DNA from: a virus | IMG/VR virus record: IMGVR_UViG_3300037587_000335 | Location: 1-33,934 of that record | Strand: one strand, 5' to 3' | DNA length: 33,934 bases | Part shown: positions 2,152 through 32,283 of the stretch, one piece after another | Numbering within the stretch: position 1 is the first letter of the stretch | Layout of the letters: each line of letters begins with the position of its first letter | Translations under genes and position numbers: made by a program | The notes under the pieces: model-generated | Told to the model about the DNA's origin: nothing | Database searches by the model: none | What the model saw: only the letters and a program-made list of their open reading frames with translations

Positions 2152-3167
2152 TGGCAATAGGAACAGCGGCGGCTATCGTTGGCGGCTCTTTAATAAGCGG
2201 GGCGCTAGGCTCTAAGGCGGCAGGTAAAGCAGCCTCAGCTCAGCAAGCAGGCGCAGAGGCAGGCATAGCAGAGCAGCGCAGGCAGTTTGATTTGACTCAG
2301 GAGCAATTCGAGCCGTTCAGGCAGGCAGGTGTTAGCGCGCTGGAGCAGCAAAGAATACTGCTAGGGCTTGGGGGTACGGCCGCTGATGATCCAAACCAGG
2401 CTAGGCGTGGAGAGCTTCAATCGTTAATCAGTCAGGCGCAACAAGGGCAAGCAGCTGACGGCTCGCAACCAGTTCAAGACACAACAGATCCAGAATTTCA
2501 GCAATTTTTAAGGCAAAACCAAGGAAGAAAGGATTTTGCTGGCATAGATGGACCCGAGCTGCTCCGTCGTGAGTTTGAAAGCACTCAAGGTCGGGCGGCA
2601 AGAACTAGCGCCCAACCTCAACAGCAGCAACTACAGAGCCTACAGGCCGAGCTTGCCGCCTTACCTGCGCCGGTGGCAGCATTATCAAATCAGGAGCAAC
2701 AAGCCCAAGCATTCGCCGCGTTCTCCGAGTCTCCGGGGCAGAAATTCCTAAGAGAAAGAGGGCAGCGAAACCTAGTCAGAAACGCAGCAGCTATAGGCGG
2801 GTTAGGTGGCGGCAATGTTCGCGAGGCGCTAGTTCAGCAGGGGGTTGGATTCGCCCAGCAGGACTTTCAAAATCAGTTTAGTCGATTAGGGCAGTTAGCA
2901 GGTCAAGGCCAAGCAGCAACAACAAGTATCGGGCAGTTTGGATCTCAGGCTTCCGGAAATGTAGCCAACCTGCAACAAGTAGGGGCTTCTGCAAGGTCTT
3001 CCGGTATACTTGGGCAAAACCAAGCGCTACAGCAGGGCATCGGCGGCGCATTTACCGGACTTGCTCAAGGTGGGTTATTCGGCGGCAATCAATTTACTAA
3101 TAGATTCGGTGGCGCTGGTCAAAATCCAGTTGCACCACCACTAGCAACACCATTTGGGGGTAGATAA
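2151..3167 (+). CDS. Ejection / DNA-transfer protein (P22 gp7-like role)
   Basis: 338 residues. A Gly/Ala-rich hydrophobic N-terminus (about residues 1-25, AAIVGGSLISGALGSKAAGK) is followed by a Gln/Ala-rich helical region and a Gly/Gln-rich C-terminus. The N-terminal pattern, then FDLTQEQFEPFRQAG, is characteristic of podoviral internal virion proteins that are ejected with DNA to build a channel across the periplasm. Three consecutive genes of this style occur here, matching the gp7-gp20-gp16 group of P22. Assignment to gp7 specifically is by order and size, not clear similarity. Coupled at both ends (TAATG). Confidence 0.7.
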   Translation: MAIGTAAAIVGGSLISGALGSKAAGKAASAQQAGAEAGIAEQRRQFDLTQEQFEPFRQAGVSALEQQRILLGLGGTAADDPNQARRGELQSLISQAQQGQAADGSQPVQDTTDPEFQQFLRQNQGRKDFAGIDGPELLRREFESTQGRAARTSAQPQQQQLQSLQAELAALPAPVAALSNQEQQAQAFAAFSESPGQKFLRERGQRNLVRNAAAIGGLGGGNVREALVQQGVGFAQQDFQNQFSRLGQLAGQGQAATTSIGQFGSQASGNVANLQQVGASARSSGILGQNQALQQGIGGAFTGLAQGGLFGGNQFTNRFGGAGQNPVAPPLATPFGGR

Positions 3168-4348
3168 TGGCTATAGGACAATTTGGCGGATTAGTTGCGG
3201 ATATTCCCGGAGCGGTCCAACGCGGCTTGCAATTTCAACAGGCGGCACAGTTGCGACCCGGACAGCTTCAACAGCAGCAACTAGGCACACAGCGCGCTGA
3301 GCAGCAACTTGTAACCGGTGGGTTGCAGCAACAACAAATACAGCAAGGTATCGAAACGGAAGAGCAGAGAGCGAAAAGCCAAAACCTTTTTAACACTGTC
3401 GCTCGGTTGCGTATTTTACCTGACGCTCAAAAGGCTTCATTTATTCAGCAAAACATCGCAGATATTGAATCTCGCAATGGTGACTCAACAGAGAGCAGGC
3501 AAGCATTAGTATTAGCTCAGCAAGGAAAATTTGAAGAATTAAACACCAGCTTAGACAATTTATTTCAAGCTGGTGTTAGCACTGGGTTCTTGAAAACTGA
3601 GCCAAAAGCGCCAGGGTTCACGCTAGGCAATCAAAGATTCGACGCAAGTGGTAAAGTAATAGCGACTGGCGTGGCACCAAAGCCTAAACTAAGCTCTTTA
3701 CAGCAGAAGGTAGCAGCAGAGGGTTTAGATCCAAACACGCCAGCGGGTCAAGCGAGAGCAAGAGAGATAACCCAAGGCACAAGAACTGACCCATCATTAA
3801 AGCCAAGTGAACAACAGGTGTTAAACAAAGCCACCGAGGGACAGCTGACATCTTCGGTGTTCGCAAACAGAGTTAAAGAGTCAAACGAGATAATAAATAA
3901 CCTTGAAAATATCAAGGGCTTTGAGCCAGCCTCGATAACATCAGCTATCTTACAGCTATTTCCGGGGGGTAATATCGCGCTATCAGATGAGCAACAACAA
4001 TATGTACAGGCAAAGCGTGATATTATTACAGCCGTTTTGCGAAAGCAGTCAGGCGCGGTTATTGGTGAAAGTGAATTCGAAAATGAGGATAAAAAACTAT
4101 TTCCACAGGTCGGCGATAGTGCGGTAGTTAAGGAACAAAAAAGAAAAGCAAGAAATAGGGAGTTTGAAAGCTTAAAGGCGCAGTCAAAAGGTGTGTTTGG
4201 CGCTCAGTTTGGTCAAAAAACCGAGACCGACAGCAAGCCTCCCGCGTCAATTGCTAGGCCGACACCAACACCAACAGGGCCGGGCGCTCCCGCACAGCCT
4301 ACGGTTGATTTTTCTGGTCAATCCAACGATCAACTATTGGACTTTTAA
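3167..4348 (+). CDS. Ejection / DNA-transfer protein (P22 gp20-like role)
   Basis: 393 residues, strongly Gln-rich in the first 70 (many QQQ runs) and predicted mostly helical. It has a Pro-rich low-complexity tail (residues about 355-380). It follows the gp7-like gene with a one-base stop/start overlap and precedes a third internal-virion-like gene. A role in DNA ejection is inferred from position and composition. The segment AVLRKQSGAVIGESEFENE recalls a conserved stretch in phage injection proteins. Confidence 0.6.
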   Translation: MAIGQFGGLVADIPGAVQRGLQFQQAAQLRPGQLQQQQLGTQRAEQQLVTGGLQQQQIQQGIETEEQRAKSQNLFNTVARLRILPDAQKASFIQQNIADIESRNGDSTESRQALVLAQQGKFEELNTSLDNLFQAGVSTGFLKTEPKAPGFTLGNQRFDASGKVIATGVAPKPKLSSLQQKVAAEGLDPNTPAGQARAREITQGTRTDPSLKPSEQQVLNKATEGQLTSSVFANRVKESNEIINNLENIKGFEPASITSAILQLFPGGNIALSDEQQQYVQAKRDIITAVLRKQSGAVIGESEFENEDKKLFPQVGDSAVVKEQKRKARNREFESLKAQSKGVFGAQFGQKTETDSKPPASIARPTPTPTGPGAPAQPTVDFSGQSNDQLLDF

Positions 4349-22229: not shown

Positions 22230-22257
22230 AGACCCGATTAAAACCGGGTCTTTTTTT
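22230..22257 (+). terminator. Strong terminator after the lysis region
   Basis: AGACCCG (22230-22236) pairs with CGGGTCT (22245-22251) around an 8-base loop, followed by TTTTTTT. It ends the rightward transcript that carries recombination and lysis genes. Confidence 0.9.
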
Positions 22258-22267
22258 GTCTATAATA

Positions 22268-22276
22268 TGGTATAAT
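22268..22276 (+). promoter_or_regulatory. Extended -10 promoter
   Basis: TGGTATAAT is a perfect TGnTATAAT extended -10 just after the terminator; there is no good -35. It would drive the two genes at 22326-22837. Confidence 0.6.
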
Positions 22277-24033: not shown

Positions 24034-24264
24034 ATGAACAATAAAAAACTGTACTACCCATCAAATGTAGATTTCAAAAAAGTGTTAGAGGATGGGCTCG
24101 AGCAAATAAACCCAAAAGTAGACGGGTTTGAATACATAGTTGGGGAAGTTCAAGGTGGGAAGGTTAAGGTGGTTTTCGAGCCTGACTCTGTTTGTTATGA
24201 CTCCATTGAAATTGACGGAGTTGATGGTTTTGGTTATTCATTGGTATGCGAGGTTTCAAAATAA
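24034..24264 (+). CDS. Hypothetical protein (76 aa)
   Basis: 76 residues, probably a small beta domain (FEYIVGEVQGGKVKVVFEPD, YDSIEIDGVDGFGYSLVCEV). AAGGA six bases before ATG. The last codons overlap the region just before the extended -10 promoter of the large non-coding block. No family recognised. Confidence 0.6.
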   Translation: MNNKKLYYPSNVDFKKVLEDGLEQINPKVDGFEYIVGEVQGGKVKVVFEPDSVCYDSIEIDGVDGFGYSLVCEVSK

Positions 24265-24273
24265 GTTAAGGTT

Positions 24274-24282
24274 TGATATAAT
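24274..24282 (+). promoter_or_regulatory. Perfect extended -10 promoter of the non-coding block
   Basis: TGATATAAT is a perfect TGnTATAAT. A partial -35 (TTTCAA, 24254-24259) lies 17 bases upstream. Transcription would start near 24289, with no ORF after it for ~770 bases. Confidence 0.65.
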
Positions 24283-24288
24283 TGTTTT

Positions 24289-24443
24289 ATCAATTAGTCG
24301 TTAAGATTAATTGTAGTGGCGTGATGACCACTTGAAAAGATAGGAAGATGAAGGGTATTCAAATATTGTAATTCTGGTGGGTTTTTTTCTCATCGTCTTA
24401 CGCCCCTCATCAACAGGGTTGCAATATTTAAGTACCCTTTTTT
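24289..24443 (+). ncRNA. Structured RNA ending in a 26-position helix and U-tract
   Basis: After a small hairpin (AGTGG 24315-24319 with CCACT 24328-24332), bases 24351-24376 pair with 24414-24439. Twenty-five of 26 positions pair, counting G-U, with a single C-A mismatch. TTTTTT follows at 24438-24443. The helix may be an intrinsic terminator of a ~155-nt RNA, or the first domain of a larger RNA. The loop 24377-24413 has no clear further pairing. Confidence 0.6.
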
Positions 24444-24535
24444 GTGTCTGTAGATGCCCTTTTGGTTACTGGGAACAGTCTAGCGAAGACTTAAACGCAC
24501 AAATCAGGATTAACTAACCTCCTGAGCAGACACAA
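24442..24535 (+). ncRNA. Cloverleaf-like RNA domain closed by a 9-bp helix
   Basis: TTGTGTCTG (24442-24450) pairs perfectly with CAGACACAA (24527-24535). Inside lie a weak arm (CCC 24457-24459 with GGG 24471-24473), an arm AGTCT/AGACT (24477-24491) with loop AGCGA, and an arm TCAGGA/TCCTGA (24504-24525). The layout is that of a tRNA cloverleaf, but it lacks the TTCGA loop and other tRNA-specific bases. Confidence 0.5.
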
Positions 24536-24598
24536 CCCTTTCAAGTAGTTAAAGCGTATATATGAGTGAGTTAAAGACGCAAATACTAGTCACTGCGT

Positions 24599-24712
24599 TG
24601 TGTTGTAGCTCAGGTTGGGAGAGCGGTTAGCTAGACTTTATTTTTGAAGCGATTAATTACCGTGGATTTATAGAGAGGCTGACAGGTCGTAGGTTCGAAC
24701 CCTACCAGCACC
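24599..24712 (+). tRNA. tRNA-like gene with a 48-nt anticodon loop
   Basis: The D arm is standard: T8 A9, GCTC (24608-24611), loop AGGTTGGGA, GAGC (24621-24624). The T arm is perfect: GTAGG, TTCGAAC, CCTAC (24689-24705), preceded by a normal variable loop AGGTC. The anticodon stem GTTAG (24626-24630) pairs with CTGAC (24679-24683). The acceptor GTGTTG (24600-24605) pairs with CAGCAC (24706-24711), one G-U; T1-C72 does not pair. No CCA is encoded. The anticodon loop 24631-24678 is 48 bases instead of 7, so the anticodon cannot be read. If 41 bases were removed the loop could be CTAGAGG. It may be an interrupted tRNA, a tRNA-derived domain of a larger RNA, or a decayed gene. Confidence 0.6.
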
Positions 24713-25030
24713 TAGCTCATTCTTATATACAGACTTATCACCGATTTAGACCACGATCTATTCCACGAAATTCGATAACCATGCAGGTTCAAAATGCAAT
24801 TAACACAAAGTCCAGGCTCTGACCCGCCATGTCAACTTGGCCCCATCATGAAACTCTATGAGTGTCAGCGTTATTTATAACGACCGAGTAATCGGGTTAG
24901 GGGATCAATTAGTACCTATGGATTGTTAGTTGGTCCATATTTAACTAGATACACGCTTTAGCCAGTAATGGTTAAGCCCTTTAGTTAACTAGCTGGTTAG
25001 TATCAGTTAGGGGAAAATGGCTTAACTATG
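24713..25030 (+). ncRNA. 3' part of the structured non-coding block
   Basis: No ORF is visible. Helices include TTATC/GATAA around 24730-24777 with inner hairpin TAGA/TCTA, TGCA/TGCA closing a GGTTCAAAA loop (24782-24798), TGAC/GTCA (24820-24834), CGTTA/TAACG near 24870, and CCGA-GTAA-TCGG near 24885 with a GNRA loop. TATGGA/TCCATA (24917-24939) follows. A long-range pair joins TAACT-GATAC (24942-24952, one bulged A) with GTATC-AGTTA (25000-25009), enclosing TAGCCA-GTAA-TGGTTA (24959-24974). Structure density and lack of coding support an RNA role; no terminator is evident before the next gene. Confidence 0.45.
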
Positions 25031-25056
25031 CTTAAAATTAATAATTGGAGAATAAA

Positions 25057-25275
25057 ATGAGTTTTTTAGAAAATGTTGTAGTTTGGTATTTCTTTGGCAG
25101 CTACGCAGTAATGGCAGTCATATTATTTACCACAAGAAGCACAACCAAAGAGTTATTTGATAGCGCAGTTCCACATGGTACGCCTGCCGCTTATGGATTT
25201 ACAATTGCAGCATTGTGGGCTGGAAGTCCTATCACGCTGATAGCCGCAACAAGAGTAAAAGTTAAATTCAAATAA
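25057..25275 (+). CDS. Small membrane protein (72 aa)
   Basis: 72 residues from ATG at 25057 with GGAG six bases upstream. Two hydrophobic helices: ENVVVWYFFGSYAVMAVILF and, after a polar loop, GFTIAALWAGSPITLIAATR, ending in a basic tail. First gene after the non-coding block, so it may be transcribed from the same promoter. Function unknown. Confidence 0.6.
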   Translation: MSFLENVVVWYFFGSYAVMAVILFTTRSTTKELFDSAVPHGTPAAYGFTIAALWAGSPITLIAATRVKVKFK

Positions 25276-27458: not shown

Positions 27459-27890
27459 ATGAGCACACACGAATCATACGCATGTAAAAGACTAAGCGAG
27501 CAAATTAAATTCTTTGGCGCAAAGCCTAAGCGGTTTGTAAGTATTTACGCTAAGAAGCCACGCATTAGAATTAAGAGCCTGACAACAAAAAAGTTAGACT
27601 TCGAAGCTGGCGACGAACAAAAGCGACTAGTGAGAGAGGGTAGGGAAGCGTTATTGCGCAATCTTGCTGGTATAGGCGGTATTGGCGGCGCGGGCCTAGC
27701 ATCGCAGCAAGCCGCAATGTCACAGCAAGCCGCAATGCTTCAGTCAATGAGTCTACAAAGGCAGGGGTTTTTGCAGGCTCAATCTATGCGGGCTAATATT
27801 GGAGTATCTAATGCTGGGCTAGCCAATTCTAGAAACTCATTGGCTAGCGGATTGGGCGCGGGATATGCTGGCACAGGCATATATTGGTAG
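27459..27890 (+). CDS. Hypothetical protein with Gly/Ala-rich C-terminus
   Basis: 143 residues. Basic N-terminal half (KPRIRIKSLTTKKLDFEAGD, EQKRLVREGREALLRN) and a Gly/Ala/Gln-rich C-terminal half (GIGGIGGAGLASQQAAMSQQ). A 15-base repeat (CAGCAAGCCGCAATG) occurs twice 18 bases apart at 27705 and 27723. The C-terminal style resembles the ejection-type proteins of the tail region, so it may be a minor virion protein. AGGGGA before ATG. Ends just before a terminator. Confidence 0.55.
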   Translation: MSTHESYACKRLSEQIKFFGAKPKRFVSIYAKKPRIRIKSLTTKKLDFEAGDEQKRLVREGREALLRNLAGIGGIGGAGLASQQAAMSQQAAMLQSMSLQRQGFLQAQSMRANIGVSNAGLANSRNSLASGLGAGYAGTGIYW

Positions 27891-27910
27891 CCACCTTCGG
27901 GTGGTTTTTT
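27891..27910 (+). terminator. Intrinsic terminator with UUCG tetraloop
   Basis: CCACC (27891-27895) pairs with GGTGG (27900-27904) around TTCG, followed by TTTTTT. It separates the small-gene region from the packaging operon. Confidence 0.9.
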
Positions 27911-27959: not shown

Positions 27960-28271
27960 ATGAGCTTAAATTTTAACGAAGTAGGCGAGATTATCCGCGT
28001 TAACGTGGGCAAGGACATTAGTTTGTCAACGCCAACATTAATATTGCGTCCCGAAGTAGGCCAAGAGAAAGAGATAACAACAGGCGTTACTATTCCAAAT
28101 GTGCAAGTTGTTACTGACGCTGAAACATTCGAGCCTAACGAGTATATCGAATACACGACTATCGACGGTGATCTAGATTACGTTGGGCGATGGAAGAAGA
28201 AAGCTAAATTAGAGTTTTCGGCGTCAAATATTGAGCAAACTGATTTTGTTAAATTTAGAGTGCTTTCATAA
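27960..28271 (+). CDS. Small virion-operon protein (103 aa)
   Basis: 103 residues from ATG at 27960 (GGAGAAAG upstream). Sequence begins FNEVGEIIRVNVGKDISLST, then LILRPEVGQEKEITTGV, an all-beta Ig-like layout. This start-of-operon protein with 'RVN-x-G-x-D-x-S' is frequent in podoviral head operons; function unknown. Its TAA overlaps the terminase small subunit start. Confidence 0.65.
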   Translation: MSLNFNEVGEIIRVNVGKDISLSTPTLILRPEVGQEKEITTGVTIPNVQVVTDAETFEPNEYIEYTTIDGDLDYVGRWKKKAKLEFSASNIEQTDFVKFRVLS

Positions 28272-28672
28272 TGGCAGGGCAACCCATGAAATATAAAACA
28301 GTTGAAGCCTTACAAGAGGCTATTGATAACTACTTTGAAGTGGATGCTTTCGTTACTGATGGTGAAGGAAACAAGAGCTACCTACCTACAATGTCAGGGC
28401 TTGCGCTTTCTTTAGATGTGGACAGAAGAACAGTTGTTAACTACTCCCACAACGCAGAATACTTTCCCACAATAAGAAAGGCTAAGGCCAAAATAGAAGC
28501 TTTCATTGAAACTAGGTTGTACGGCAATAACGTTACAGGCTGTATATTTAACCTTAAAAACAACTTCGATTGGAAAGATAAACAGGAGATCGAAACCAAG
28601 GACACAACCAACGAAGTGAGCGACGAGGACTTGAACGCTAAGATCCTTGAGTTGATGAAAAAGCTTAAATAA
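28271..28672 (+). CDS. terS: Terminase small subunit
   Basis: 133 residues. LPTMSGLALSLDVDRRTVVN (about residues 38-57) is the DNA-binding helix-turn-helix region. IFNLKNNFDWKDKQEIETKD (about 96-115) is the typical small-terminase motif (x-F-x-L-K-N-x-F-x-W-K-D-k). It recognises packaging DNA and hands it to the large subunit. TAATG overlaps link it to genes on both sides. Confidence 0.85.
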   Translation: MAGQPMKYKTVEALQEAIDNYFEVDAFVTDGEGNKSYLPTMSGLALSLDVDRRTVVNYSHNAEYFPTIRKAKAKIEAFIETRLYGNNVTGCIFNLKNNFDWKDKQEIETKDTTNEVSDEDLNAKILELMKKLK

Positions 28673-30105
28673 TGCTTGAGACAATGAGCCGAGCCGACAA
28701 GGTTAACCTGGTTGCTATGCTAACCGAAAAGGCAATGCGTGCAGAAAAGTATCGATACAAGACCATGTTCGGCGGCTTGTACGGATGGCAGCGCGAGTTT
28801 ATTAAGCACACTAACGAATACATGGCCGTTTGCTTATGTGCCGCTAACCGTATTGGTAAGACTTACACTGGGACATACATTGATGCCATTCACTTGATGG
28901 GTGAGTATCCTGATGATTGGGATGGTCATAAGTTCGACGGCAGTATGCTTATGTGGTTACTTGGCTACTCAGGCGAGAAAACCCGCGACCTATTACAGCA
29001 AGAGCTGTTTGGTAGATTACAGCAAGGCAAGTTATCGGGCGGGTTAATACCGCCTGAACTGATTGTCGATTACAAGTCAATGAGTGGCACGCCTGGCGCA
29101 TTGCGTGAGGTCAGAGTGAAGCGGAAGGACGGCAGCATAGGGACGTGTCAATTCTGGTCATACTCTCAAGGGCAGCATGCATTGATGGGTGATAGTGTCG
29201 ATTGGTATCACATCGATGAAGAACCCAAGGATCAATCTATTTACCCGCAGGTGTTAACTCGTACAGCTACCGGTGATAATGGTCGAGGTGGTCGAGGTAT
29301 ATTAACCTTTACGCCTGAGAACGGCAGGACTGATCTCGTTATTAAATTTATGGATAACCCAGGTAAGTCTCAATACTTCATGCAAAAAGGCTGGGATGAT
29401 GCGCCTCACTTGTCCGACAATGTAAAAGAAAGCCTCCTAGATTCATTTCCGCCACACCAGCGAGATATGAGAACCAAAGGCACGCCAATGCTAGGTCATG
29501 GTCGTATCTATGATTTGAGTGAGGATTTCATTACCTGTGATGCATTCGATATACCTAAACACTGGTATGTTATTAACGGCATGGACTTTGGTTGGGATCA
29601 TCCTCAATCACACATACAATTAGTATGGGATAGGGACCAAGATATATTTTATGTGACCAAGGCACAGAAGATGCGCCAAACATCACCTAGTGAGGCATGG
29701 GGCAGCGTTAAGATATGGGCTGCTGGCATTCCTACCTCTTGGCCTCACGATGGGTTACAAACCGAGAAGGGCAGCGGTAAGCAGCAAAAGGAATACTACG
29801 AAGAAGCAGGCTTTGAAATGCTTTACGAGAAAGCTACCTGGGAAGAAGGCGGCAACAGCGTAGAGGCTGGACTCTTTGAAATACGCGACTTAATGCGCAA
29901 AGGTAAGTTTAAAATATTCGCTGGTTTGCGTGACGTATTCGACGAGGTGAACCAATACCACCGCGACGATAAAGGCAAGATAGTAAAGACCCGTGATGAC
30001 TTGCTCGATGCCATTCGTTACGCCTATATGATGCGCCGTGAGTCTATCCCGTTTGGTGATATACTAGGCTCAACTCAAGATCTAACATTTGACACGGAAT
30101 GGTAA
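28672..30105 (+). CDS. terL: Terminase large subunit
   Basis: 477 residues. ATPase domain: Walker A AANRIGKT (residues 57-64), Walker B YHIDEE with Asp182-Glu183, coupling motif LTFTP near 211. Nuclease domain: MDFGWDHP with Asp305, and DDLLDAIRYAYM with Asp446. These fit the RNase H-like nuclease of large terminases. Together with TerS it drives ATP-dependent headful DNA packaging through the portal. No frameshift or missing residue seen. Confidence 0.95.
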   Translation: MLETMSRADKVNLVAMLTEKAMRAEKYRYKTMFGGLYGWQREFIKHTNEYMAVCLCAANRIGKTYTGTYIDAIHLMGEYPDDWDGHKFDGSMLMWLLGYSGEKTRDLLQQELFGRLQQGKLSGGLIPPELIVDYKSMSGTPGALREVRVKRKDGSIGTCQFWSYSQGQHALMGDSVDWYHIDEEPKDQSIYPQVLTRTATGDNGRGGRGILTFTPENGRTDLVIKFMDNPGKSQYFMQKGWDDAPHLSDNVKESLLDSFPPHQRDMRTKGTPMLGHGRIYDLSEDFITCDAFDIPKHWYVINGMDFGWDHPQSHIQLVWDRDQDIFYVTKAQKMRQTSPSEAWGSVKIWAAGIPTSWPHDGLQTEKGSGKQQKEYYEEAGFEMLYEKATWEEGGNSVEAGLFEIRDLMRKGKFKIFAGLRDVFDEVNQYHRDDKGKIVKTRDDLLDAIRYAYMMRRESIPFGDILGSTQDLTFDTEW

Positions 30106-30108
30106 ACA

Positions 30109-32283
30109 ATGGCAACTAATAAAGAGAACGAAAAGGTTCACACGCTAGCGATTAAGCGATTCGACCGCATCGAAAGAAAAGGGCGTGATCAGCGCAAGCT
30201 AGCAATTGAAGATATTAAATTTGCCCAAACAGAAGATGGGCAATGGGACGAGGGCGCAATTGAAAAGCGCAAAGGTCGCCCACGGTTCACAATCAATCGA
30301 GTGGCTGGCGCTATTGATCAGCTCATTGGCGATCAGCGGCAGAACCGAACCGATATTAAAATCAGACCGGTAAGTGGTGGCGCGACTGAAGACGTTGCCA
30401 AGGTAATGACCGGCTTAATCCGTAATATTGAATCGACCAGCAAAGCTAGTAACGCTTATGACACGGCATTCGATGAAGTGGTTAACGGCGGGTTTGGTGG
30501 GTGGCGTATTACTACCGAGTTCAATGACGATGACGCGTTTGATCAAGACATTAAGATTAAACCATTAAACACAGCAACTACCTCACTATGGTTTGACGAT
30601 GCAGCTCTTGAATATGACAAGCGTGATGCTCTATTCGCATTTGTCACAGTTGATATGCCGAAGGAGGAACACAAGCGGCGATTCCCTAAGTCGGAGGTTA
30701 GCGAGTGGTCACAAGAGAAATATAACACTTCAGTTTGTGCCGGCTGGGCAAATGCGGACACGGTCCGCGTCGCAGAGTATTGGGTTAAGACTCCCGTAAC
30801 ATTTGAAATAGCATTACTGTCTGATGGTCGAGTGATCAATCAAGACGAAGAAAAAGATGTGCTTGACGAGTTGGCAGCGAAGGGGGTTACGGTTAAAAAG
30901 ACTCGCACAGTCAAGAGTCATAAAGTTGAAATGTACTTGCTCGATGGTGCCGGAGTATTGGAAGGCCCGAAGGCGTGGGCCGGTAAATTCATTCCATTAA
31001 TACCTATGTTTGGGCGACAATCACATATTGAAGGTCGGACATATACCCGAGGGCTTGTGCGCTTTGCTAAAGACCCTTGCAGAATTTACAACTACGAAAC
31101 ATCCGCAATTGTTGAAACTAACGCGTTAACGCCTAAAGATCCGATTTGGTACACGCCAGTACAAGTTAAGAATCACGAAGCTAAATACCGAAACTTTGCT
31201 AATAGCAATAGCCCGTTTATGCCTTACAATCCCGACCCAAAAGCGCCAGGCGCACCACAACGAGGCGGAGCGCCGGCCGTTCAGCAGGGATCACTACAAA
31301 TACTCCAGCAAGCAGGTATGGATATATATCATGTTACTGGTATGCAGCCGCCATCATTAGGCGCAAACCCTGAGCTTAAGAGCGGAAAAGCAATACAGGC
31401 TCAAGAGCGCTTGGGTGATCGAGGGTCGTATATTTTTAGCGACAACTTATCCAAATCGATTGAATACACTGGCGAGATATTGCTTGATTTAATTCCTCGC
31501 ATTTATGACACTGCGCGACAAGTGCGGATCATGCAGCAAGACGGCGAGACGGAGAATGTCGAGATCAACACGGTTAACCAGGAAATATTAGACGAACAAA
31601 CCGGTGAGGCCGTTTTGGTTAATGACCTCTCTATGGGTAAGTATGATTCAGTGACAGAAACAGGGCCAGCATTCGCAACTCAACGGCTGGAGTCAGCGCA
31701 ACAAATCATTGACCTAATTGGAACATCACCACAGTTTGAAGCGTTAGCAATGGACTTGGTTGCCAAGGACTTGCCAATACTTGAATCGAAAGAGCTAGTG
31801 AAGCGAGTTAGAAAGCAGATGATTCAGCAAGGCATCGTTGAGCCAACCGAGGAAGAAACCAAAGAGCTAGGACTTGATCAGCCTCAACAGCCTGACCCAC
31901 AGCAAACAGCCATCACTGAGAACATTCAGATTCAGACTGAGAAGCTAATCAGCGACATTGAGAATCAAGACGCCAAGACGCTCGAAACAACGGTTAAAAC
32001 TCAACAGGCAACACTTGATAGCTATAAGACATTAATCGACGCTTACAAGTCTCAGATTGAAGCTGGAATAGGGCTAAGCCAAGTCGATCATAACATCAGA
32101 GTTAAGCAGCAAGATATTATTGTCGAGGGTCAGCAAGCCATCGACGAGGGACCAAACTCAGAGCAGACGGCTAGCATTGTGAATGATGCAGTGGCGGCAG
32201 AGCAGCAAGCTGAAGCGGAAGGAGCAAGACGGCTAACGGTCCAGCAACCAAGCGCTAGTGCTGGGCAGGATATAGTTTCTTAA
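30109..32283 (+). CDS. P22-type portal protein
   Basis: 724 residues, almost the same length as P22 gp1 (725). N-terminal part KRFDRIERKGRDQRKLAIED and GQWDEGAIEKRKGRPRFTIN is typical of P22-like portals. A long C-terminal helical region (about 560-720) is Gln/Ala-rich, as expected for the barrel. Twelve copies form the ring that docks terminase and later the tail. It starts 3 bases after TerL; the stop TAA is doubled with TAG. A promoter follows. Confidence 0.9.
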   Translation: MATNKENEKVHTLAIKRFDRIERKGRDQRKLAIEDIKFAQTEDGQWDEGAIEKRKGRPRFTINRVAGAIDQLIGDQRQNRTDIKIRPVSGGATEDVAKVMTGLIRNIESTSKASNAYDTAFDEVVNGGFGGWRITTEFNDDDAFDQDIKIKPLNTATTSLWFDDAALEYDKRDALFAFVTVDMPKEEHKRRFPKSEVSEWSQEKYNTSVCAGWANADTVRVAEYWVKTPVTFEIALLSDGRVINQDEEKDVLDELAAKGVTVKKTRTVKSHKVEMYLLDGAGVLEGPKAWAGKFIPLIPMFGRQSHIEGRTYTRGLVRFAKDPCRIYNYETSAIVETNALTPKDPIWYTPVQVKNHEAKYRNFANSNSPFMPYNPDPKAPGAPQRGGAPAVQQGSLQILQQAGMDIYHVTGMQPPSLGANPELKSGKAIQAQERLGDRGSYIFSDNLSKSIEYTGEILLDLIPRIYDTARQVRIMQQDGETENVEINTVNQEILDEQTGEAVLVNDLSMGKYDSVTETGPAFATQRLESAQQIIDLIGTSPQFEALAMDLVAKDLPILESKELVKRVRKQMIQQGIVEPTEEETKELGLDQPQQPDPQQTAITENIQIQTEKLISDIENQDAKTLETTVKTQQATLDSYKTLIDAYKSQIEAGIGLSQVDHNIRVKQQDIIVEGQQAIDEGPNSEQTASIVNDAVAAEQQAEAEGARRLTVQQPSASAGQDIVS

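Follow-up and report, generated by a model that had tools for sequence, protein, structure and literature searches.

GOLLD and ROOL, two large structured RNAs whose function is unknown, are found near transfer RNA (tRNA) islands, and tRNAs sometimes lie within the GOLLD linker (PMC12286853). Here we describe an RNA of comparable size encoded by IMG/VR virus record IMGVR_UViG_3300037587_000335, whose positions 1 to 33,934 make up the stretch analysed (hereafter, the window) and which protein searches assigned, by its gene families, to a marine phage of the lambdoid/P22-like type. The segment 24289-25040 belongs to an undescribed family of structured RNAs of modular build carried by marine gammaproteobacterial phages, "undescribed" meaning that neither Rfam 15 nor the open-licence papers searched contain a description of it. 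The presence of a conserved structured RNA in this region is, in our judgement, practically certain. Other loci are designated by L plus a number.

Comparison with described phage RNAs

Like the window RNA, GOLLD is large, structured, borne by phages or prophages, often near tRNAs, and built of a constant and a variable part. In GOLLD, however, it is the 3' part that stays constant and the 5' part that varies (PMC12286853), the reverse of the family described here. ROOL resembles the window RNA in its similar size, occurrence in phage genomes, pseudoknots and tRNA neighbourhood, whereas the constant element of the window family is a 130-nt promoter-proximal domain in which the loops of hairpins P1 and P4 pair with each other, and which has no Rfam match. 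In keeping with RNAs of the GOLLD and ROOL type, the family is phage-borne and many members carry tRNAs or pseudo-tRNAs in a slot (slot 1). A cmscan of the window and L002-L004 against Rfam 15 returned tRNA only, with no match to GOLLD, ROOL or OLE, and at E ≤ 5 the window block gave nothing beyond tRNA and a chance microRNA match; GOLLD, ROOL, OLE and other Rfam families were rejected at both the gathering threshold and E ≤ 5. The first-pass annotation of this DNA had proposed a large structured RNA, either GOLLD/ROOL or an undescribed class. The structured RNA and the undescribed class stood, while GOLLD/ROOL did not (Infernal, E up to 5); the 130-nt conserved core with its loop-loop pairing and U-tract, the modularity and the position at the head of a late operon had been missed.

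Among cis-acting elements, put RNAs lie just 3' of a phage promoter and render the polymerase terminator-resistant; those of HK022 are ∼70 nt long, comprise two stem-loops and belong to early promoters (PMC9378689). The window RNA shares with HK022 put the interacting, most likely cis-acting stem-loops directly 3' of a promoter (the -10 box lies 11-38 nt before P1) and ahead of operons interrupted by terminators. Unlike put, its conserved domain is ∼130 nt long, stands before a late operon and combines the loop-loop pairing with a P2-P3 pseudoknot and a U-tract; compared by description, not by alignment, it departs from the ∼70-nt two-stem put consensus in both length and architecture. For its part, the Q protein binds late promoters and overrides terminators (PMC6606751), and the lambda pR'-tR' region on which it acts consists, like the window locus, of a promoter, a short leader, a terminator-like stem plus U-tract and then late genes. 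In the window, a promoter followed by a terminator-like element (24274-24443) precedes the late genes starting at 28271. In contrast to pR'-tR', the leader itself is conserved and covarying and is followed by a long structured 3' domain. No Q family was matched among the 30 window proteins searched, the remaining small open reading frames (ORFs) lying outside that search.

Phage ICP1 produces an abundant noncoding RNA (ncRNA) of ∼800 nt between gp139 and gp140, near lysis genes (PMC7567579). This Vibrio-phage RNA is similar in length to the window RNA and, like it, lies close to lysis genes, but ICP1, unlike the window family, has no tRNAs. Homology was rejected; the best score of our covariance model R1 (see below) was 5.1 bits, with an E value of 1.8. 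The ncRNA region of ICP1 (L322, 20098-21108, minus strand) has a terminator-like GC stem with a T-run near its end.

A conserved and covarying 5' domain

Homologues were collected by sensitive blastn, by using the relatives as queries, by scanning IMG/VR contigs with DNA patterns from the conserved core, and finally with R1, a covariance model covering the first ∼130 nt that includes P1, P2 and P4 only, not P3 nor the loop-loop pairing. Blastn gave three phages with 45-89 nt in common (Vibrio 242E40-1, Pseudoalteromonas HS2 and Vibrio 1.242.O); the match lay in ORF-free gaps, adjoined in two of the three by a tRNA or tRNA-like annotation. The RNA recurs in three dozen or more related phage sequences; over 20 annotated records of Vibrio and Pseudoalteromonas phages contain a homologue, as do more than 12 IMG/VR contigs. 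R1 matched 25 loci at E ≤ 2e-10, 16 of which had built the model; 9 further loci matched at E ≤ 1e-17 and 8 more distant ones at E values from 2e-8 to 1e-3. The P22-like contig L195, reached via its terminase (R1 E value, 0.004), was the only one of 80 P22-like loci in a terminase-based search with a recognisable 5' domain, and L019 was joined to the family by eye. A pattern scan of genome contigs gave no R1 match in 80 loci out of at least 118 matches. R1 likewise found no match in Vibrionaceae and Alteromonadaceae genomes, an insensitive search in which scoring reached only 11 of the ∼1000 candidates in each genome, and a pattern search for prophage copies, whose pattern suits only some family members, returned only chance-like sequences.

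The conserved core common to all homologues is the promoter-proximal ∼130-nt 5' domain just 3' of the -10 box (Table 1). P2 and P3 cross, so that the domain forms a pseudoknot or P2 and P3 alternate; P3 is pseudoknotted with P2 in most members, not all, and that of the window, with one mismatch, is among the weaker examples. The apical extension of P2 probably competes with the 3' side of P4. In a sub-class (L306-L308, L311-L313 and L019), read by eye, P1, the loop-loop pairing and the P2-U-tract are kept and a local hairpin replaces P3. The folding energy of 24288-24446 was well below that of shuffled sequences (z, -3.91; 0 of 200 shuffles equally stable). That of the whole block (z, -2.19; 1 of 20 shuffles) was discarded as evidence because the antisense strand scored as well (-2.66).

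Covariation of P1, P2 and P4 was measured in the 28-sequence R1 model alignment, which leans towards these helices because it was fitted to them. Standard pairs made up 94.9%, 15 of the 24 pairs had changed on both sides, and the covariation score was 0.534, compared with 0.098 or less in slid registers. P1 was paired in 100% of the sequences, with two-sided changes in 2 of its 4 pairs, and 13 of the 16 pairs of P2 showed such changes, while no covariation was observed for P4. The two elements outside the model also covaried. P3 scored 0.429 against at most 0.162 when slid, with two-sided changes in 6 of 6 pairs; the loop-loop pairing scored 0.395, compared with 0.348 at the -1 register, a value due to about ten rows aligned one column off, and no more than 0.262 elsewhere.

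The complementarity of the two loops was measured across 38 members, in which the longest Watson-Crick run between the P1 and P4 loops averaged 6.6, against 4.6 (standard deviation, 0.18) with permuted partners; 0 of 20,000 permutations reached the observed value. About 20 complementary versions occur, including UGGAAG/CUUCCA, UGAGAG/CUCUCA, UUGGUAG/CUACCAA, UUGAAAGA/UCUUUCAA, UGAAGA/UCUUCA, UAGAGA/UCUCUA, GUGGUG/CACCAC, UGAUAC/GUAUCA, UUUGGCGA/UCGCCAAA, GUGAGAUG/CAUCUCAC and GUCGAGU/ACUCGAC.

Several features of the block had been predicted by the first-pass annotation and were recovered here. It had described a gene-free block, and no ORF of at least 50 amino acids was found within 24305-25044 on either strand; an extended -10 promoter, which is perfect and keeps its position across homologues; a helix of about 26 positions, which corresponds to P2 plus its apical extension, followed by the U6 tract; and a tRNA-like domain, which is the sole Rfam match at gathering (tRNA, 33.6 bits; gathering score, 29; 24599-24713). 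The same annotation had named a lack of covariation and coding by the block in another phage as grounds for doubt, and neither was found: covariation was strongly positive in the 5' domain (P1, P2, P3 and loop-loop) and weaker in the 3' domain. Minus-strand "hypothetical protein" coding sequences are annotated across the RNA in BS5 (L017, 3131-3244) and Pq0 (L020, 3153-3266); these calls are probably spurious.

A -35-like hexamer, TTCAAA (24255-24260), lies 16 nt upstream of the -10 element (10 of 12 matches, TG present), and the sequence suggests a transcript start near 24289. Perfect extended -10 9-mers occur four times in the window against 1.9 expected, so that the motif by itself is not significant; the promoter call is supported because the box keeps its place upstream of P1 in nearly all homologues, which puts P1 at or near the 5' end of the RNA. 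Just upstream of the -10 element, TTTGCA plus an inverted repeat (CCCCACTTTGCATTTGTGTGGAGTGGG or CCCACCTTTGCAATGGTAGTAAGGGTGGG) is conserved in L002, L018, L019, L306-L308 and L313, and in L014 and L015, and might be an operator or activator site. Elsewhere in the window, a strong intrinsic terminator (22230-22251) is directly followed, up to 22282, by a promoter-like site and a second TGGTATAAT (22268-22276).

Table 1. Features of the RNA locus and its surroundings in the window
Feature	Position	Strand	Remarks
Gene upstream of the RNA	24034-24264		
Extended -10 element TGnTATAAT, TGATATAAT	24274-24282	+	Perfect match; same place in nearly all homologues
P0, optional 5' hairpin CAATTAGTC/GATTAATTG	24291-24313	+	Other hairpins here in L008, L010, L037, L021, L055
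P1 hairpin GUGG/CCAC	24316-24331	+	Loop 24322-24327, UGAUGA, is the 5' half of the loop-loop pairing
P3, 5' strand	24342-24351	+	Partner 24390-24399; crosses P2 (pseudoknot)
P2, 5' strand	24352-24371	+	Partner 24419-24438
Loop with conserved GGYGGGYUUUUU motif	24372-24389	+	
P3, 3' strand	24390-24399	+	
P4 hairpin CCCU/AGGG	24404-24418	+	24407-24412, UCAUCA, is the partner of the P1 loop
P2, 3' strand	24419-24438	+	
U6 tract directly 3' of P2	24438-24443	+	Intrinsic-terminator-like, loop ∼50 nt; in most members, absent in L310
Slot 1, cloverleaf-shaped pseudo-tRNA	24444-24533	+	7-bp acceptor-like stem GUGUCUG/CAGACAC; arms of 3, 5 and 5 bp
Holder helix GUAUAUAUGAGUGAGUUA (24556-24573)/UAGCUCAUUCUUAUAUAC (24713-24730)	24556-24730	+	Also in L263, around different contents
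Second tRNA-like module	24599-24713	+	Good D and T arms; enlarged anticodon arm, 46 nt replacing the loop
3' domain, type A	24731-25039	+	Ends GGGGAAAAUGG...AAAAUU just before the Shine-Dalgarno of the next gene
First gene 3' of the RNA	25057-25275	+	ATG 25057; TTG 25045 also in frame
Intrinsic terminator between the RNA and the terminase genes	27889-27910	+	
Late operon: terminase small and large subunits, P22-like portal	28271-32283	+	

Exchangeable modules and gene context

Directly 3' of the U-tract, the family has a slot that holds real tRNAs, pseudo-tRNAs or nothing, depending on the member. Real tRNAs occupy it in L014-L016, L009 (Val) and L034 (Gly) and, read by eye, in L263 (His-like, anticodon GTG), L269 and L284; the sets found include Trp, Arg and Gly in Seahorse, Met and Arg in vB_VaM_H2, and Trp and Arg in 1.085.O. 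Degenerate cloverleaves are present in the window, L288 and L002, and the slot is empty in L306-L308, L310 and L313. The window pseudo-tRNA has no anticodon or T-loop consensus; its module recurs in L288 with three compensated pairs (two sequences only). ARAGORN found no tRNA in the window block. Accordingly, a real tRNA array was rejected, as was a complete tRNA with anticodon loop at 24599-24713, where 46 nt take the place of the loop; transfer-messenger RNA was rejected with both ARAGORN and Rfam negative. Modules with an enlarged anticodon arm were seen in the RNAs of two different phages, that of the window and L002 (6076-6178, annotated tRNA-Und). DNA-level searches gave no match to slot 1 in phages and none to the holder-helix region in plasmids.

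The 3' domain, of 250-300 nt, comes in several exchangeable sequence types and in mosaic combinations; those of L309 and L310, for example, have the same start and different ends. The window type is common to L018, L020, L309 and L312, and probably L059. Compared with the window, its relatives show compensated pairs in the nested helices at 24812-24840 (CCAGG/CUUGG around UGAC/GUCA). RNAalifold covariation on 6-7 sequences supported local helices only, because alignments across types are unreliable, and the folding energy of the domain alone was unremarkable (z, -1.3), so that its fold is supported only locally. In Vibrio phage vB_VpP_BT-1011 (L022, 2973-3130), the promoter and 5' domain are kept, the tRNAs and 3' domain are gone, and the next ORF is directly attached, starting ∼20 nt into a truncated tRNA-Met; this deletion is either a natural variant or an assembly or annotation issue.

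The minus strand of the window carries replication O/P-like, NinB and RusA-like genes, and the plus strand encodes an Erf-like annealing protein, an amidase and a holin, and then the P22-like terminase, portal and scaffold. Past 24264, the only ORF overlap comes from the margin of a frame that ends at 24304. No closing terminator follows the RNA, and the next start codon is tens of nucleotides away; the product of that gene matched no known family. In annotated relatives, of many phage types, the RNA lies 3' of lysis or NinX/NinG-region genes and 5' of terminase, portal or capsid genes. The site directly 3' of it is a cargo-gene hot spot headed by the RNA. Its first gene, often a small one, varies by phage, encoding a calcineurin-like phosphatase, an HNH nuclease, a DNA methylase or others (L008, L018, L306-L309). 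In the P22-like contig L260, an ORF-free gap of 1.2 kb with five tRNA calls (2710-3930), ∼3 kb upstream of the terminase, occupies the same relative place as the window RNA; two of the calls have abnormal anticodons, and flanks are repeated.

Possible role in late transcription

We tentatively favour, at slightly below even chances, the view that the 5' domain is a cis-acting attenuator/antiterminator heading the late operon of packaging and structural genes. This proposal, like those on transcription and RNA processing, is drawn from the conserved structure, covariation, modularity and gene order described above. Transcription would start at the -10 box, and the first ∼150 nt would fold co-transcriptionally, forming P1, then P3, then the pairing of the P4 loop with the P1 loop, with P2 and U6 last. 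The state with P1-P4 loop-loop pairing and P3 would allow or cause the RNA polymerase to read past the P2-U6 terminator, and probably past later ones, either in the manner of HK022 put or as a Q-controlled late leader. The read-through RNA would bear its tRNA or pseudo-tRNA cargo in the tolerated slot between the 5' and 3' domains, real tRNAs being cut out by host tRNA nucleases, and the separately folding 3' domain would end just before the first late gene.

A transcription switch in cis is suggested because P2 competes with P4 through its apical part and forms a pseudoknot with P3 at its base. The promoter-proximal place, the gene order, the lack of a closing terminator, the BT-1011 variant and the terminators downstream also favour a cis role in late transcription. 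In the window and L014, the stretch from the RNA to the terminase contains intrinsic terminators, and in L015, L269, L284, L288 and others such terminators occur no more than 3.5 kb downstream of the RNA (9 found, compared with 1.4 expected, across 28 loci). P22-like relatives that lack the RNA (L211 and L199) have promoter-like and terminator-like elements at the same position, with weak consensus matches. Several observations weigh against a cis switch. P2 is no classical terminator, given its loop of ∼50 nt, and L310 has P2 without the U-tract; the replacement of P3 in the sub-class described above means that P3 is not essential to any switch; a downstream terminator needing read-through is present in only some phages; a pure attenuator leaves the conserved structured 3' domain and the pseudo-tRNAs unexplained; and a late-antiterminator protein might act at the promoter instead.

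That last point leads to a leader of the lambda pR'-tR' kind, in which P2-U6 would be overridden by a Q-like phage protein that is loaded at the promoter, the fold being mainly a terminator and a stable small RNA. The known action of Q on late promoters and terminators (PMC6606751), the matching position of the promoter-terminator elements in P22-like relatives, the TTTGCA/inverted repeats conserved upstream of the -10 element in Vibrio phages and a zinc-binding DnaJ-type protein encoded upstream in L021 agree with it. We nevertheless consider it unlikely, as the window proteins searched (30, not all ORFs) include no Q family and a covarying loop-loop pairing or pseudoknot would be superfluous for an ordinary terminator. 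A stronger contender, possible although on the doubtful side, is a free-standing RNA similar to GOLLD/ROOL, that is, a late, abundant molecule of ∼750 nt acting in trans as particle or scaffold, perhaps multi-copy, with the tRNAs as cargo. Its length (450-750 nt across the family), complex fold, embedded or adjacent tRNAs, phage-borne nature and closeness to late genes fit this well, in line with the tRNA associations of GOLLD and ROOL (PMC12286853); the 3' domain is conserved beyond the needs of a leader, and the loop-loop pairings could act between molecules too. It is less easily reconciled with the lack of Rfam similarity to GOLLD, ROOL or OLE, with a constant part that is the promoter-proximal 130 nt, the 3' domain being exchangeable and missing from BT-1011, or with the start codon that follows within tens of nucleotides and without a terminator.

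The content of slot 1, real tRNAs in some members and degenerate cloverleaves in others, could also mean that the locus is mainly a landing site, its structure insulating or processing tRNAs and the rest being decaying tRNA-array debris. This is very improbable: the 5' and 3' domains are both retained in L306-L308, L310 and L313, which lack tRNAs, the pseudo-tRNA pairs are compensated between the window and L288, debris is not expected to covary as P1, P2, P3 and the loop-loop pairing do, and the conservation of the 5' domain appears independent of tRNA content. Within the cis-acting attenuator/antiterminator reading, a bolder version, which we hold to be rather unlikely, is a protein-independent RNA antiterminator. 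The P1-P4 loop pairing and the pseudoknot would convert the polymerase at the late promoter, and would be joined to a 3' RNA that is exchangeable and might form particles, as well as to a tRNA cargo bay. If so, one transcript would both switch on the late operon and deliver a structured RNA.

The present analysis adds a family of large phage RNAs that Rfam 15 does not include. Over 20 annotated phage records give access to it, several of which are isolates from Vibrio and Pseudoalteromonas hosts grown in the laboratory, and its many rewired yet complementary loop pairs constitute ready-made compensatory variants. Should late transcription be under the control of the 5' domain, the family would represent a rare RNA-based late switch; otherwise, it would offer a simpler, modular comparison for the role of GOLLD- and ROOL-like RNAs with embedded tRNAs.
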